DNA of 64,000 bases from positions 124,001-188,000 of the forward strand of contig MJAN01000004.1 in the NCBI GenBank assembly GCA_001875255.1, given 5' to 3'. Under the pieces are notes generated by a model. It did no database searches. It saw only the letters and a list, made by a program, of their open reading frames with translations, and had not been told where the DNA came from. The stretch comes from Candidatus Sabulitectum silens (GTDB taxonomy: Bacteria > Fermentibacterota > Fermentibacteria > Fermentibacterales > JCC-6). Numbering within the stretch: the stretch's first letter is position 1; each line of letters opens with the position of its first letter. Position numbers and translations under genes: made by a program. Shown in pieces: positions 41,641 through 64,000 of this stretch.

Positions 41641-41737
41641 GGGAGCGGAAGGGAGCTGGTGTTCCTCTCGGACTTCAAATCCGACGTCGGGTGCTAGAAC
41701 CACCCTGGGTGGGTTCGATTCCCACACGTTCCCGCCA
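41641..41737 (+). tRNA. selC: Selenocysteine tRNA (anticodon TCA)
   Basis: A 97-nt tRNA with encoded CCA. The anticodon arm CGGACTTCAAATCCG gives TCA. The variable arm is long (GTCGGGTGCTAGAACCACCC) and the acceptor/T domain is extended, as in tRNA-Sec; the T-arm is GTGGG TTCGATT CCCAC. The first seven acceptor pairs (GGGAGCG with CGTTCCC) form, with a G discriminator. It implies UGA recoding in this genome; selA, selB and selD are not in the window. Confidence 0.93.
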
Positions 41738-56822: not shown

Positions 56823-57582
56823 CCCATCTCGATCAGCACCGAATCATCCGGGTCCACATCCTTCAGGGACCCTACAAGGCCCCTTACCGTTCCCTCGAGC
56901 ATTTTCGCCGGGAACCCCGACAGGGGAACTTCCCTGCCGCCGCAGACAAGTCTTGTTCCCTTAGGCATTGTCTCGCAGCACCCCTTGTCGCAAAGGTTCC
57001 GGTGAGCCTCTGGTAAACCTCGGATACCATGGCAGCCGCGACGGCGGTCACCCTGGCGGAAAAGGTTCCCTGGGAAAGGGTGGATGTATGGTCCCCCACC
57101 ACGGAAAGGGAACCGGTTCTCAGGGTGGTTATTCGGCAGTGGGTTCCGGTTCCCGCCACACCGGAACATGCCACAATGGGTCTGTCAGAATGAAGGGCGG
57201 ACCACTCCTCGATGAGCATGGCTTTTGCCTCGGAGTCGTCGAATGCCTCTATGAGTATGTCGCACTCACCGAACACAACGGTGACGTTCTCCGGGGATAT
57301 CCTGAGGGAGTGAACTTCGGACCTGAACCCCGGATTGATACGACGGAGATTCGCCTGGAGGGCTTTCGGCTTGGACATCCCTATCTGGTCCGCGAAGAAG
57401 AACTGCCTGTTCAGATTCCCCGGCTCCACCCTGTCGAAATCGGCCAGCACCAGGTCCACCGCGCCGGAGCGAACCAGCATCCCGGCGGCGTTTGACCCTA
57501 TACCTCCGCAGCCGGCGATCCCGATCCGTACCCCGGCAAAGGTGTCCGCCAACCCCGGGGGACAGCAGCTGAAAATACCCAT
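56807..57582 (-). CDS. ThiF/MoeB-like adenylyltransferase with extra C-terminal domain (frameshifted)
   Basis: About 258 aa. ATG at 57582 follows GGAGG. VRIGIAGCGGIGSNAAGMLV is the ATP-binding motif, and LADFDRVEPGNLNRQFFF the metal/adenylation segment, as in ThiF family 2. There is no obvious CxxC zinc site. After a frame change near 56970 a C-terminal stretch of ~50 residues follows (LVCGGREVPLSGFPAKML ... GSLKDVDPDDSVLIEMG). This segment recalls a small domain also found at the end of some MobB-type cofactor proteins. A role in sulfur-carrier activation for thiamine or Mo/W cofactor is inferred. Confidence 0.7.
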
Positions 57583-57594
57583 TGTCAACCTCCT

Positions 57595-58924
57595 CAGATG
57601 TAGCCCAGATTCTTCAGCGCGTCAAGGAAAACGTTCTCCACCATCACCGCGGAGGGTCTGTGGAGGGGCGGCGTACCCAGATAGTAAAGGGCCTTCTCGT
57701 AAAGGCCTTCGTCCACCAAATCCAGGGGGTGGTGTTCGCCGGGGTCAGCTGCCAGGTCGAACATGGCGGAAAGGTTTCCCCTGTCAGCCAGATGAACCTT
57801 CAGGTTGCCCTCACGGGAGGTTACCCGGTATCCCCCTCCATGTTCATGCCCGATGGAACCGCCCTGTCGGCGGGAAAATCCTCGGAAAGGAGATCCCGGC
57901 CGAAACCTCCGTAGGAACTCTCAATGTCACACCAGCCCAGAACCGTTGGAAGGATGTCCGCCTGGCTCGCGGTGAGTTCGGAAACAGAGCCCGGGGAAAA
58001 ACCCCGGCCTGAAATGATGAGGGGAACATTCACCAGCTCCTGGTACAAGGAGTGCGCGTGGCCCATTTTGCCGTGGTCGAGGAACTCCTCGCCATGGTCG
58101 GCAACCAGTATCACCAGTGCGTCTTCGGTGATGCCACGCCGGCGGAGCCCCGCCAGGAGCCTTCCTATCTGGCTGTCGGTGTAGGCCACCTCGCCGTCGT
58201 AGAGGGCAACCAGGTTGAAGAGGTCTTCGGGGTTCAGAGTGATGAGACCCTTGTTCACATTGACCACGGTTTCCCTCTGACCCCAGGATGAGTCGAACTC
58301 CCCCTGGTATTCCATGTTCCGCCAGCGGTGGGCGAAGGGGTCGGGGGGAGAATAGGTAAGGTGCGGATCGTAGAAGTGAACCGCCAGAAAAAGGGGACCG
58401 TCACCGGTGTATTCGCTGTCCAGCCAGCGGAATACCTCGGTAACGGTGGTTCCGGCGTCGCGGTCTTCGCTGGTGCCCAGGGCGTTGTGGCAGTCGAAAT
58501 GGTCGAAGCCCTGATGAAACCCGAAATCGGCGTTCATGAAGATCACATTGAAGAAAGCGGCGGTGATGTACCCCGCCCCGGTCATGTACTCAGTGAGGGT
58601 CACCGCCTCCGGGGCAAGTCCGTAGTAGTTCTCTCCCCTTCTGCGGGCGTTGTGTTCCAGTGGAAGCAATCCGGTGAAAATGGTTGCCATGGAGGGGAGG
58701 GTCCAGGGTTCCCCGGCGGTTACGCTGGTGTACCTGACACCGGCCCGGGCCAGGCTGTCCATGGAAGGGGTGGTGTCCCTGTGATAACCGTAGCAGCCCA
58801 GGTGGTCGGACCTGAGGGTGTCAACGATGATCAGTATGACGTCGCCGCCGGTCCTTCTATCACCGCAGCCGGAAAGCAGCAGCACAAAAAGGAACACCGG
58901 AACAAGACAAAAGCGCAAATCCAC
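57595..58924 (-). CDS. Sulfatase/alkaline-phosphatase-superfamily lipoprotein (frameshifted C-terminus)
   Basis: About 443 aa. The signal peptide LFVLLLSGC gives a lipoprotein. VILIIVDTLRSDHLGCYGY is the first metal site, PWTLPSMATIFTG replaces the CxPSR motif with Thr at the nucleophile position, and ILVADHGEEFLDHGKMGHAHSLYQE is the second metal site (listed here only as a motif region near residue 270). A frame change near 57830 precedes the tail, which ends at 57595. It is likely a periplasmic or surface phosphatase/phosphotransferase rather than a formylglycine sulfatase. It ends 12 nt before the ThiF-like start. Confidence 0.8.
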
Positions 58925-59119: not shown

Positions 59120-59906
59120 ATGTCCTGCAGCTTTTCCACCCGGGAGATCCAGGAGGCGCAGAAGACCGTCGCCACCTTCAGATACAAGCCTAAGCCTTCC
59201 ATAAAGGGCTATACCGGCGAGGCTCTGAGGGTCGACCTTTCCAACTACTCCTTCAGGATCATTCCCATACCCGAAGAGATCAGGGAGAAATTCACCGGAG
59301 GAAAGGGGTTCGACCTCTGGCTCCTCTGGAACGAGGTAACCGGCGACACGAAATGGGACAGCCCCGAGAACGGCATCGCCATTTCAGGCGGTCCCCTGGG
59401 CGGAACACCAAGTTTCCCGGGAACCGGTAAATCCATAGTAACCACCATCAGCCCACCACCGGCTCGGTTATCGACAGCAATGTGGGCGGCCACTTCGGCC
59501 CCTGCTGAAGTATTCCGGTTTCGACGCCATGATAGTGGTGGGCAAGCGGGAAGAGCGGGACCATGTGATTGCCATCGACGGCGACAGGGGCACCGTGAGC
59601 ATCGTCAGGAACGAGAAGCTGGACACCAACAGTCACATAGTGGCCAACCAGCTGGCGGAACTCTACTCCACCGACGAAGACGACAAGAGGAACATCTCCA
59701 CAGTTTCCGCCGGTGTGGGAGCCGACCACACCTGGATAGGCTGCCTGAACTTCTCATGGTGGGACTGGCGCAGGAAACACATGCGCCTGAAGCAGGCCGG
59801 CCGTGGAGGCAGCGGAACGGTATTCCGGGGCAAGGGCCTCAAGGCCCTGGTGGCCCGCTCAACCGCCTCCAGACCCATCTGGGCCCACTCGGAAGGGGGA
59901 AAATAG
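59120..59906 (+). CDS. Aldehyde:ferredoxin oxidoreductase N-terminal domain as separate small subunit (frameshifted)
   Basis: About 262 aa. ATG at 59120 is chosen because GGGAGG lies 6 nt upstream. After a ~30-residue leader, GYTGEALRVDLSNYSFRIIP begins the AOR N-terminal domain, with FTGGKGFDLWLLWNEV and ISGGPLGGTPSFPGTGKS marking the pyranopterin-binding region; SNVGGHFGPLLKYSGFDAMIV and GRGGSGTVFRGKGLKALV follow and end the domain. The catalytic domains 2 and 3 are on a different gene 3 kb downstream. A frame change lies near 59460. It is expected to bind half of the tungsten-bispyranopterin cofactor. Confidence 0.87.
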
Positions 59907-59907
59907 C

Positions 59908-60383
59908 ATGTCATGCCAGTGCGGATGCAAGAACCCCGTTGATGTGATTATCGACAAATGGAACGCCGACCCCGACTTCGTCATAGAGATGTTCCAGGAC
60001 ATACAGGACGCCTGCAGGTGCATTCCCCGTGAAGCCCTTTACAGGGTGGCCGAAAGAACAGGAAAGCCCAGGGGAACACTGTTCCACATAGCAACCTTTT
60101 ACAAGGCCTTCAGCCTTGAGCAGAGGGGCGAAAAGGAAATCCAGATATGCACAGGCACGGCCTGCTATGTGAAGGGGCCCCGGATGTGCTGGCCGCCTTC
60201 GAGCGGGAGCTGGGCGTAAAGAGCGGAGAAACCACCCCCGACAGGAAGTTCACCCTCTCCGAGGTAAGATGCGTCGGAGCCTGCGGCCTTGCCCCGGTGG
60301 TGGTGGTGGGAGATGAGGTCATCGGCGGTGTAACCCCGTCCATGATCCCTGATATAGTCAACAGGCACAGAGAGGAGGGCTGA
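59908..60383 (+). CDS. NuoE/HydC-like thioredoxin-fold [2Fe-2S] subunit (frameshifted)
   Basis: About 159 aa, starting 1 nt after the small AOR subunit. The helical N-part (IPREALYRVAERTG) and QICTGTACYVKG then VRCVGACGLAPVVVV supply the four cluster Cys (CxxxxC ... CxxxC) of the NuoE family. The N-terminal CQCGCKNP Cys residues are extra. It passes electrons between the flavoprotein subunit and partners. A single lost G near 60180 breaks the frame. Confidence 0.9.
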
Positions 60384-60384
60384 C

Positions 60385-62251
60385 ATGAACCTGGAAGAAC
60401 TGAAAAGCCTGCAGCGGTCAGCCGCCGCGGAACACGGATCATACGCCGCGGCCCTCATGGTATGCGCCGGCACCGCCTGCGTGGCGGGAAAGGCCCTTCC
60501 CCTTATAGAACAGCTCAGAAAAGAACTGAAGAGCAGGGGGCTCGATAAAAAGTACCTGGTGGTCCCCACCGGATGCAACGGCTTCTGCGCCCAGGGCCCC
60601 GTAATGGTGGTTCAGCCAGGGGGTATTTTCTACCAGAAACTCACCACCGACCACATCCCGGAGATAATCGAGAAGCATCTTGAGGGCGGAGAGCCGGTGG
60701 AGAGCCTTCTCTACCACATCCACGGCCGTCCCGTACCGAAAATGGACGACATACCCTTCTTCGGCAAGCAGAAGCTCCTGGCCCTCAGGCACAGGGGTAT
60801 GCTGAACCCGGAATCAATCGAAGACTACATAAGGGTAGGTGGATACCAGGGTATACACAGGGTGCTCACAGAGATGACACCGGGTCAGGTAACCGCGGTG
60901 GTCCTCAGAAGCGGCCTCCGGGGCAGGGGCGGCGGAGGCTTCCCCGCCGGGGTCAAGTGGCAGAGCTGCGTGGCGGCCTCGGAAAAGTCCGGCAGGAACC
61001 GGTGGTCGTATGCAATGCCGACGAGGGTGATCCCGGAGCCTTCATGGACCGTTCCATAGTAGAGGCGGATCCCACTGCGTGATAGAGGGAATGATGGCAG
61101 GCGCCTACGCCGTTGGGGCGGAAGAGGGCTACATCTACATCCGCAAGGAATACCCCCTGGCAATGCAACGCCTCGAGAAGGCCATCGCCCAGGCGACTGA
61201 GAAGGGCCTCCTCGGCGGGAACATATTCGGAACCGATTTCAGCTTCACCATAAAGGTGCACCGGGGTGCCGGAGCCTTCGTCTGCGGTGAATCCAGCGCC
61301 CTCATGGCTTCCATGGCGGGTATGCCCGGAGAGCCCAGGGCGAAGTACGTCCGCTCGGTGGAAAAGGGCTACAAAGACGGCCCCACGGTACTGAACAACG
61401 TGGAAACCTGGGCCAATGTATCCCTCATCATGGAGAAGGGCGCCGACTGGTTCGCTTCCATAGGCACCGGTGACGTATCGAAGAATCCCTGGAACGGCTG
61501 CAGCGGAACCAAGGTGTTCAGCCTGGTGGGAGATGTGAACAACATCGGCCTGGTGGAGGTCCCCATGGGCATCACCCTCAGGGAGATCATATACGACATA
61601 GGCGGAGGCATCCCCGGGGGCAGAAGCTTCAAGGGCGTCCAGACCGGAGGCCCATCCGGCGGGATCATCCCCGGGGAGAAGCTGGACCTTCCCGTGGACT
61701 TCGACAGCCTCACCGCCGAGGGTTCCATGATGGGTTCCGGCGGCATGGTGGTTATGGACCAGAACACCTGCATGGTACAGATAGCCAAGTACTTCGTCGA
61801 CTTCCTGAAGGGCGAGAGCTGCGGCAAGTGCACCCCATGCCGTGAGGGGCTCGTCGCCCTGGGCCAGATACTTGAGAGAATAGTTGAGGGCAATGGCAGG
61901 CAGGGCGACCTGGAACTCCTGGAGAGCTACGGGTCCACAATGAAGGACAGTTGCCTCTGCGCCCTGGGGAAGGACGCCCCAAACCCGGTGCTGAGCACCA
62001 TCAGATACTTCCGCAACGAGTACATGGCCCACATAGAGGAAAAGCGCTGCCCCGCGGGGAAGTGCCATGCCCTTATCAACTACAGGATCATCCCGGAGAA
62101 CTGCACAGGCTGCACCCTCTGCGCCAGGAAGTGCCCGGTGGAGGCAATTTCGGGAACTCCGAAGCAAGTGCATGAGATAGACCCCGACAAGTGCATCAGG
62201 TGCGGCATCTGCTATGATGTCTGCAACTTCGGCGCTGTGGAGGTGAAGTAA
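60385..62251 (+). CDS. NuoF/HydB-like FMN- and NAD(H)-binding flavoprotein (frameshifted)
   Basis: About 622 aa with this domain order: an N-terminal thioredoxin-like [2Fe-2S] domain (VCAGTACVAG ... PTGCNGFCAQGP, residues ~20-90); the FMN/NAD domain (LRGRGGGGFPAGVKW, CNADEGDPGAFMDR, GAFVCGESSALM); the [4Fe-4S] motif ESCGKCTPCREG; and a C-terminal 2x[4Fe-4S] ferredoxin (CTGCTLCARKCP, CIRCGICYDVC). This composition equals the HydB/BfuB-type subunit of flavin-based bifurcating enzymes. Frame changes lie near 61000 and 61070. It is coupled to both neighbours, with 1-nt gaps or overlaps. Confidence 0.92.
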
Positions 62252-62891
62252 TGACTGAGAAACTGATCACCGCGACCATCGATGGCGTGGAAGTACAGGT
62301 ACCCCCGGACACAACGGTCCTCGAAGCGGCACTGAAACTGGACATACACATTCCCACGCTCTGCCACAGTGAGCTTGTGGAGCCCTACGGCGCCTGCCGT
62401 ATCTGCACCGTGGAGGTGGACGAGGGCCGGGGGCCGAAGCTGGTTACCAGCTGCAACTATCCCATCCGAAGGGATTGCACCGTAAACACGAAAAGCGAAA
62501 GGGTCCTCTCCAACAGGAAGAACATCCTGGCCATGATGATGGCCCGGTGGCCGGAGGTCAAGAAGGTAAAGGATATGGCGAAGTTCCACGGTGTGGAACA
62601 CCCGGGCTTCCACCACCCGAAGGTGGACTTCAACCCACACGCATGCATACTCTGCGGACTCTGCACCAGGATCTGCAGCCAGGGCATCTGGGAGGATGTG
62701 ATCAACTTCGCAGGCAGGGGCGAGGACAGGGAAGTCCGTATGCCCTACGAAACCATAGAGAGCCACTGCGTAAGCTGCGGGGCCTGTGCCGAGATCTGCC
62801 CCACCGGAGCCATCACAATGTCCAAGGACCCGAACCACCCCACGACCAGGAGATGATCAGAAGGGCGGGGATGAGGTTACGAAGGAAATGA
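62251..62891 (+). CDS. NuoG-N/ferredoxin-like iron-sulfur subunit (frameshifted end)
   Basis: About 213 aa. The plant-type [2Fe-2S] domain comes first (CHSELVEPYGACRICTVEV ... SCNYPI), then two [4Fe-4S] motifs (CILCGLCTRIC and CVSCGACAEICPTGA). It matches the N-terminal part of NuoG or of [FeFe]-hydrogenase HydA without a catalytic domain. A lost C near 62840 moves the apparent stop to 62856; the corrected frame ends at 62891 in an ATGA overlap with the large AOR subunit, which supports the correction. It is the likely electron conduit to the AOR. Confidence 0.88.
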
Positions 62892-64000
62892 TCCTCATGG
62901 ACACCGAGCAGTGCAACATGCGTGCCGTTGGCACCGCCCACCTCACCGAGATAATGGACGCCTACGACCTACTCCCGGTGATGAACTACCAGTACGGCTC
63001 CCACGAAGACACGAAGAACATCGAGAGCCGCGTATTCATCGAGAACTACCTCACACAGGGGGTTCCCGACGGCTGCTACCTGGGCTGTTCCATGGCCTGC
63101 GCCAAGGCGGCGGAGGGTTTCCAGCTGAAGACCGGCCCCTACAAGGGTCAGAAGGTCCTGGTGGACGGCCCGGAATACGAAACAGTAGGCGGCTCCTCCA
63201 ACATGGGCGTATTCAACCCCCACTTCCCCATCGAATACAACTTCTACTGCGATACCTACGGCATAGACACCATAAGCTTCGCCACCGCCACGGCATTCGT
63301 GATGGAATGCTACGAAGCGGGAATCCTTGACATGGAGAAGACCGGCGGCCTCGACCTAAGGTTCGGCAACTGGGAACACGCCATGGAGCTTCTTCACCGG
63401 ATGGGACGGGGCGAGGGCTTCGGCCTCATAGCCGGCAGGGGCATCAGGTACATGAAGAAGTACTTCGCCGAGAACTACGGCGCCGACCCCGGTTTCCTTC
63501 AGGACATTGGAATGGAAGCCAAGGGCATGGAGTACTCCGAGTATGTCACCAAGGAATCCCTGGCACAGCAGGGGGGCTATGGAATCGCCCTTAAGGGCGC
63601 CCAGCACGACGAGGCATGGCTGATCTTCATGGATATGGTCAACAAGCAGATACCCTCCTTCGAAGACAAGGCCGAGGCGCTGCACTACTTCCCCATGTGG
63701 AGGACCTGGTTCGGGCTGAACGGCCTCTGCAAGCTTCCCTGGAACGATGTGGAGCCGGCGGACAACGCCGAAACCGACGAGCCGGCCAAGGTACCTGGCC
63801 ATGTTCAGGGCTACTGCGAACTCTTTGAGGGGGTAACGGGAAAGCCCCAGACCATGGACAGCCTCATCGTGATGAGCGAAAGGGTCTACAACTTCCAGAG
63901 GGTCTTCAACCTGAAAATGGGCTTCGGCACAAGGGAACACGACAAAATACCCTACCGCTCCGCCGGCCGGTTACCAACCGGGAGTACGAGAGCCGGGTTG
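62888..64000 (+). CDS. Aldehyde:ferredoxin oxidoreductase catalytic domains as large subunit, cut by window edge
   Basis: At least 370 residues are visible, starting directly in AOR domain 2 with no N-terminal domain. PDGCYLGCSMACAKAAEGF carries the Cys ligands of the [4Fe-4S] cluster next to the pterin; GPEYETVGGSSNMGVF and CDTYGIDTISFATATAF are AOR domain-2 segments, and LNGLCKLPW offers the fourth Cys. The ATG at 62888 overlaps the upstream stop (ATGA). A frame change lies near 63968, just before the window edge. With the small subunit at 59120 it makes one complete tungsten/molybdenum AOR. The aldehyde oxidised is unknown. Confidence 0.88.
   Translation, partial: MILMDTEQCNMRAVGTAHLTEIMDAYDLLPVMNYQYGSHEDTKNIESRVFIENYLTQGVPDGCYLGCSMACAKAAEGFQLKTGPYKGQKVLVDGPEYETVGGSSNMGVFNPHFPIEYNFYCDTYGIDTISFATATAFVMECYEAGILDMEKTGGLDLRFGNWEHAMELLHRMGRGEGFGLIAGRGIRYMKKYFAENYGADPGFLQDIGMEAKGMEYSEYVTKESLAQQGGYGIALKGAQHDEAWLIFMDMVNKQIPSFEDKAEALHYFPMWRTWFGLNGLCKLPWNDVEPADNAETDEPAKVPGHVQGYCELFEGVTGKPQTMDSLIVMSERVYNFQRVFNLKMGFGTREHDKIPYRSAGRLPTGSTRAGL

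Follow-up and report, generated by a model that had tools for sequence, protein, structure and literature searches.

A tungsten aldehyde oxidoreductase split around a BfuCBA core in Candidatus Fermentibacterota: a candidate electron-bifurcating complex

The closest described systems are Class IV WOR, in which the catalytic WorL is one chain accompanied by the polyferredoxin WorS (PMC13328260), and the Bfu family of electron-bifurcating enzymes. In the consulted part of PMC9304861 (section 5), the named Type 1 members of the latter are the FeFe, Nfn, Fdh and F420 forms, and Wor-Bfu, whose S and L subunits are separate, is assigned to Type 2. The WorL chains collected in PMC13328260 carried both aldehyde oxidoreductase (AOR) domains, and in the Bam complex, as outlined in the same paper, BamB is a whole chain that is joined by BamC, which resembles WorS, and by the additional subunits BamDEF. 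Here we analyse an operon in a 64,000-nucleotide stretch of Candidatus Sabulitectum silens (hereafter the window), in which AOR domain 1 is encoded apart from AOR domains 2-3, with NuoE-, NuoF- and NuoG-like coding regions in between. Comparison with relatives led us to consider it probable that the operon encodes one soluble bifurcating complex, with a tungstopterin aldehyde oxidoreductase rebuilt from two chains.

The operon runs on the + strand from position 59120 to about 64234, i.e. 0.2 kb past the window end, where the last gene (BfuA-AORC) was found to terminate once the DNA beyond 64 kb was read. Pfam families were found in the order AFOR_N, NuoE-like, NuoF-like with a C-terminal 2x[4Fe-4S] part, NuoG-N-like and AFOR_C; AFOR_N (PF02730) was recovered in two frame pieces of 66.5 and 45.3 bits, and AFOR_C (PF01314) with 267.8 bits. 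This order is not a matter of chance, since E-values went down to 2e-79 and the layout was identical in relatives. The first gene, AORN (59120..59906), encodes AOR domain 1 alone. It is followed after a gap of 1 nucleotide by BfuC (59908..60383), a NuoE/HydC-like [2Fe-2S] subunit of the thioredoxin fold, and after another gap of 1 nucleotide by the NuoF/HydB-like BfuB (60385..62251), with an N-terminal [2Fe-2S] domain, the Nuo51 FMN/NAD domain, SLBB, NADH_4Fe-4S and the C-terminal 2x[4Fe-4S] part. BfuB overlaps as TAATG with the last gene, in which a NuoG/HydA-like BfuA part with [2Fe-2S] and 2x[4Fe-4S] (62251..62836) is continued by an AORC part with AOR domains 2-3 and their [4Fe-4S] and tungstopterin motifs (62837..64000, and on to the end of the operon). 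The preliminary description of the window had placed the AOR N-domain apart from the catalytic domains with NuoE/F/G-like genes in between, and both this order and the 2x[4Fe-4S] C-terminus of the NuoF-like chain were borne out by Pfam. It had also counted NuoG-N and the AOR catalytic part as two genes, and missed that they are one polypeptide in relatives; its junctions of 1-4 nucleotides are replaced by the three just given, the NuoG/AOR boundary being a deletion artefact.

The operon of the relatives consists of four genes, AORN, BfuC, BfuB and a BfuA-AORC fusion. In L039 (L numbers denote loci of relatives) the first three encode 262, 160 and 622 amino acids and the last a single protein of 661 amino acids, with AOR domains 2-3 directly after the NuoG-like part. 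A search with AORC gave 180 relatives, of which the best 80 were kept as named loci. Not one of these 80 has the NuoG-like and AOR catalytic parts in different frames, so that the NuoG-N and AOR catalytic genes of the window are one gene, and the five-gene reading was rejected. In comparison with L039, L041 and L044, the operon genes carry ten one-base deletions, eight in the window (59449 and 59501 in AORN, 60176 in BfuC, 60989 and 61072 in BfuB, and 62837, 62874 and 63966 in AORC) and two just past it (64049 and 64063); in addition, a single base is inserted between AORN and BfuC, and three bases are inserted in frame. Two or more frames are needed to read each operon gene of the window, and deletions 62837 and 62874 produce the apparent boundary between NuoG and AOR. 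Four stretches compared with L039 gave nonsynonymous divergence (dN) values of 0.113, 0.106, 0.136 and 0.068, with synonymous divergence (dS) of 1.1, 3.6 and 1.6 in three of them and not computable in the fourth. Since the differences are mostly silent, with dN far below dS where both were computed, sequence error is likelier than decay, and the one-base deletions are likely to be such errors. Genes outside the operon, e.g. nrdD, also appear interrupted.

The window corresponds to positions 124001-188000 of contig C4, in an assembly of 2.92 Mb and 94 contigs with a completeness of 71%, and its nearest named relatives are metagenome-assembled genomes of Candidatus Sabulitectum and other Candidatus Fermentibacterota. 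The number of deletions in the operon and the incompleteness of the assembly might suggest that the split itself is an assembly artefact or a pseudogene of this genome. That explanation is hardly credible and applies only to the separation of NuoG from the AOR catalytic part: AORN (whole or partial) lies in a different frame from AORC in 33 of the 33 split named loci that show AORN, in separate records, which refutes an artefact or pseudogene as the source of the AORN / BfuA-AORC split, and the low dN relative to dS also speaks against it.

A locus was classified as split when BfuA and AORC were in one frame, and as intact when AORN and AORC were in one frame. By these definitions, 39 of the 80 named loci were split and 41 intact; the window is added to the former in the residue counts given below for 40 split rows. 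Four separate frames for AORN, BfuC, BfuB and BfuA-AORC were observed in 28 of the 39 split loci (AORN being only partial in L038), two had AORN and BfuC fused, three had no BfuCB beside AORN, and six were cut by a contig end, of which L043, L047, L049 and L054 keep part of BfuB and L040 and L075 show none. The titles of the split records name Fermentibacterota (and Aegiribacteria), Myxococcales, Myxococcota, 'Deltaproteobacteria', Eisenbacteria, Acidobacteria, Bdellovibrionales and one Cloacimonetes; the split arrangement is common to bacteria of several phyla. Four wider surveys based on AORN matches at E <= 1e-40, in which some genomes overlap those of the named loci, recovered matches in 13 of 195 genomes (8 of 13 loci split or fused and 5 intact), 4 of 339 (all four split or fused), 8 of 329 (six of eight split or fused) and 53 of 396. 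In the last survey two of the three loci viewed were split, and most others have frames of sufficient length for an intact AOR.

Phylogenetic analysis of the two AOR halves together (73 rows, 8 of 81 having been dropped) revealed one branch that separates split from intact rows with an SH-aLRT support of 99; the support was 99 for the N part alone, 90 for the C part alone and 100/98 in a careful 75-row N tree, all trees being without outgroup. AORN and AORC match the same nine distinct PDB sequences, all of them AOR-family single chains, and for this reason the split form is, by parsimony, the derived one. The position of the cut can be read from motifs. In intact rows, 60-62 residues lie between the start of the AGRGG motif at the end of domain 1 and the Gly-Thr of domain 2 (27 of 41 rows with readable motifs), and in split loci AORN ends 35-45 residues past the AGRGG start (30 of 39 readable). 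In all 30 readable split loci, AORC starts with a motif resembling the intact linker D.N.PAD, and 43 residues separate the last Cys-Pro of BfuA from the Gly-Thr of AORC. Judging from these spacings, the cut lies in the linker between AOR domains 1 and 2, and the two halves together cover the intact protein with almost nothing lost. The N and C distance matrices were correlated with r values of 0.85 for 33 split rows and 0.86 for 40 intact rows, as compared with 0.21 or less in 200 shuffles, and this correlation fits a continued partnership of the halves.

Modelling of the L039 AORN chain alone with AF2 resulted in a pLDDT of 87, and the model had nine PDB matches at E <= 0.001, all of them AOR-family chains. 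A GorS-like identity of the small subunit was rejected on these grounds, the small chain being AFOR_N. The BfuA-AORC model (pLDDT 77.9, pTM 0.71) was too weak for inter-cluster distances; its top fold match was 9mqx_D, the WorL chain of the bifurcating WOR of Acetomicrobium mobile, and its fourth was 9mqx_A of the same complex.

All 40 split rows and all 41 intact rows retain the residues Thr243, Glu313, Tyr427 and His448 and the four [4Fe-4S] cysteines; Asp338 and Gly341 of the pterin motif are likewise present in each of the 40 split rows. Numbers are those of Pyrococcus furiosus AOR, with columns mapped via PDB alignments; Tyr427 and His448 were placed with the help of an Aromatoleum chain and of the distance between their two numbers. 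Thr243, Glu313, Tyr427 and His448 are associated with most aldehyde oxidisers (PMC13328260), and their conservation speaks against a Bam-like function in which ferredoxin and NADH would drive the reduction of an acid or of some other compound. In favour of such a reverse direction or other substrate, WorABC-like subunits accompany an AOR-family subunit in the Bam complex (PMC13328260), and Wor and Bam both involve low-potential couples (PMC9304861). The neighbouring genes shared by three or more split loci are only partly annotated, give no hint of a substrate and neither favour nor exclude this possibility, which we consider quite improbable.

With regard to the electron-transfer module, the Cys motif of BfuC was present in 30 of the 30 split rows read, the [2Fe-2S] motif of BfuA in 40 of 40, and two CX2CX2CX3C motifs of BfuA in all 39 named split loci, none of which had an HX3CX2CX5C motif in BfuA. 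Among PDB sequences, the BfuA part matched 9mqx_A best, and its best NCBIfam match was the NADH-dependent [FeFe] hydrogenase A6 family; PF01314, and not the H-cluster domain of HydA, was the sole Pfam family listed C-terminal of its 2x[4Fe-4S] part. BfuB of L039 matched HydB over residues 20-619 of 622 and the A. mobile WorB chain over 23-619, and BfuB shows the domain set of the Bfu family (Nuo51, SLBB, NADH_4Fe-4S and the C-terminal 2x[4Fe-4S]), SLBB in the window scoring 26 bits, slightly below the cut-off of 27. The ligands of clusters B1, B3 and B4, together with Cys438, His525, Cys531 and Cys536 of B2, were kept in all 40 split BfuB rows, the window included, some of these rows being one gene reached by two routes. 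The B2 His was found in 45 of 49 other BfuB-like rows, and E. coli NuoF is without any of B2-B5. In an 87-row tree, made by a quick method and with long-branch warnings near the outgroup, the split BfuBs formed one branch with support 100 among BfuB-type rows, apart from E. coli NuoF. The phylogeny of the NuoF-like chain had been set beforehand as a refutation test of bifurcation, and it came out on the side of the BfuB-type proteins. Near the split clade in this tree we observed the BfuB of L186 (6005-13369), a locus with BfuC, BfuA and HdrA/B/C-like genes, the Hdr names being assigned by eye.

These data bear on a simpler alternative, a non-bifurcating NAD-linked aldehyde oxidoreductase, in which NAD+ would be the sole acceptor for the electrons leaving AOR by way of BfuA and FMN, the extra BfuB clusters being a relic or structural. 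In its favour, the oxidation of aldehydes, at about -560 mV, could reduce NAD+ with no need for bifurcation (PMC9304861). On the contrary, the C-terminal 2x[4Fe-4S] and the B2 His/Cys, kept in 40 of 40 split rows, argue against it: according to the same paper, non-bifurcating homologues are without B2-B5, and the B2 His is absent from homologues that do not bifurcate. The grouping of BfuB away from E. coli NuoF points in the same direction, and we consider the NAD-linked enzyme unlikely, even taking into account the irregular B2 ligands and the decay of the core in some relatives described below.

Fusions between chains were found in several relatives. AORN and BfuC form one open frame in L116 and L117. 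In L201, L235, L236 and L237, AORN, BfuC and BfuB form one open frame, with BfuA-AORC as the next gene, and L202 has the same first gene, its contig ending within BfuB. Those placed on the N tree (L116, L117, L201 and L202) form one clade with support 100/99. Such fusions tie AORN to BfuC and BfuB, as AOR domains 2-3 are tied to BfuA, which would be hard to explain unless all parts sat together; the chain fusions argue for one complex, and the tungsten enzyme and the Bfu core very likely work as one. A different combination of AOR and Bfu parts was observed in two Bacillota metagenome-assembled genomes, L084 (7173-16180) and L091 (5636-14489), with an intact AOR followed by BfuC-BfuB in a single frame and a very long frame starting with BfuA; this is another AOR/Bfu arrangement.

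Altogether, the sequences give good support for a bifurcating tungstoenzyme built on a Bfu/Hyd core, and from the conserved BfuB features we infer bifurcation itself. The operon would encode a HydABC-like enzyme in which AOR domains 2-3 take the place of the hydrogenase (H-cluster) domain, C-terminal on BfuA, and AORN would dock in trans on them to supply AOR domain 1. An aldehyde would be oxidised at the tungsten, and electrons would pass from the [4Fe-4S] cluster of AOR to the clusters of BfuA and on to the FMN and clusters of BfuB and BfuC, which would reduce NAD+ and ferredoxin together. The preliminary description had already proposed one complex oxidising an aldehyde with reduction of NAD+ and ferredoxin, and this proposal was strengthened by the BfuB ligands and the BfuB phylogeny and weakened by the absence of the fifth B2 ligand from the window.

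Several observations weigh against the bifurcating complex, the first of them at that fifth position (Cys476). It is Thr in 24, Ile in 10, Met in 2, Cys in 2, Ala in 1 and Val in 1 (the window) of the 40 split rows, i.e. neither Cys nor Thr in 14, which also favours the NAD-linked alternative. The fifth B2 ligand is described as Cys, or Thr in about two-thirds of sequences, and is not stated as a requirement for membership in the passages of PMC9304861 consulted. Seven of the 40 split rows have two B5 ligands replaced, Cys to His and Cys to Gly, and a third B5 ligand is altered in 1 of 40. Joint inheritance alone would also yield the correlation of the N and C distances. In L059, L060 and L092, AORN is immediately followed by BfuA-AORC, and BfuCB is absent from the locus DNA examined, the contig of L092 ending inside AORC so that its downstream side is unseen. 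No split-clade BfuB was found elsewhere in these three genomes among the matches placed on the tree, several weaker matches being left unplaced. The three loci occupy separate places inside the split clade of the N+C tree, and their scattered positions do not support the absence of BfuCB as the ancestral state. An AORN chain of about 520 residues followed by BfuA-AORC was found in L239, where it keeps only a BfuB fragment (449-553), and in L238, where no BfuB match exceeds 50 bits; in both, the flavin domain and BfuC have apparently been lost. Where BfuB is fused in L201 and L235-L237, inspection by eye showed that the NADEGDPGAF-like motif and the thioredoxin-type [2Fe-2S] domain at the N-terminus are altered or missing; L202 retains both. 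The core can thus be dispensed with in some relatives, namely those without BfuCB or the flavin domain. In addition, we know of no member of the split family with known activity or structure. Finally, what has been demonstrated for A. mobile WOR1 is limited to a partition of electrons between NAD+ and ferredoxin and includes no endergonic step (PMC12096430).

For the origin of the bifurcating complex, the most economical account would be that a bfuCBA cassette became lodged in a worL gene, where the linker joins domain 1 to domain 2. A Type 1 Wor-Bfu would have arisen in this way, with the active site built from the first and last chains, the core as a giant insert and a later condensation to two chains; we put the chances of this whole account at about even.

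Upstream of the operon lies a ThiF-family (E1-like) gene on the - strand (56884..57588). Homologues of this gene (E <= 1e-8) were found in 15 of 40 split loci, the window included, and in 7 of 41 intact loci; worX and thiF have been linked to pterin cofactor biosynthesis (PMC13328260), and MoaC was found in the genome of the window. Between thiF and the operon there is a sulfatase-family gene (57821-58924, - strand) with, by eye, a lipoprotein-like start. Two further AOR loci were found in the same genome (C20:19579-21148 and C1:16634-18584; L002-L006, L119, L120, L122 and L123), each in pieces and possibly also frameshifted. The window also carries a selenocysteine tRNA gene (41641-41733, + strand; Rfam RF01852, 71.1 bits), and this organism may have a selenoprotein system.

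Across the listings, abstracts and passages covered by our literature searches, no split WOR that carries a Bfu core between the two halves is described. A split Type 1 Wor-Bfu would be absent from the Type 1 members named in the consulted part of PMC9304861 and outside the WorL definition of PMC13328260, in which N- and C-terminal AOR domains share one chain; the split loci have them in two, so that a WOR survey demanding both domains in one chain would pass them over. If the proposal is correct, a tungsten aldehyde oxidase is wired directly into a bifurcating core without the 'nanowire' polyferredoxin of A. mobile WOR1, and the split enzyme, having no polyferredoxin chain, tests the need for that chain. 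The operon would also show how an enzyme gene can be split and yet leave active-site residues conserved, and expression of such a machine may be simplest with the two-chain forms.

Among the known systems, Class IV WOR (WorLSABC; Wor-Bfu Type 2; A. mobile WOR1, 9mqx) shares with the split operon the AOR-family catalytic domains and the BfuABC-type core. The split operon differs from it in having WorL cut in two, with the catalytic part on BfuA, and in showing no WorS: the WorS with four [4Fe-4S] clusters that marks Class IV gave no match above 60 bits in any of 40 split loci, as compared with 18 of 41 intact loci, in the locus DNA examined, which includes some short contigs. GorSL and Class II WOR (WorLS) resemble it in that its nearest intact AORC relatives are AORs, 18 of 41 with a WorS-like match in the locus. 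The comparison with GorSL made in the preliminary description nevertheless fails, since the small piece is AOR domain 1 and not a polyferredoxin beside a whole large subunit. The Bam complex, a class II benzoyl-CoA reductase, also combines an AOR-family subunit with NuoEFG-like subunits; in the split operon no WorS-like match was seen, and BamDEF were not searched for. The bifurcating [FeFe]-hydrogenase HydABC (Bfu Type 1) shares the BfuB cluster set and a catalytic domain C-terminal on BfuA, i.e. the third-substrate domain on the BfuA chain that defines Type 1, as found in the one-frame BfuA-AORC of 39 of the 80 named loci and, broken by deletions, in the window. In contrast to HydABC, the split operon has AOR domains 2-3 at the position of the H-cluster of HydA, and AOR domain 1 comes from a second chain.

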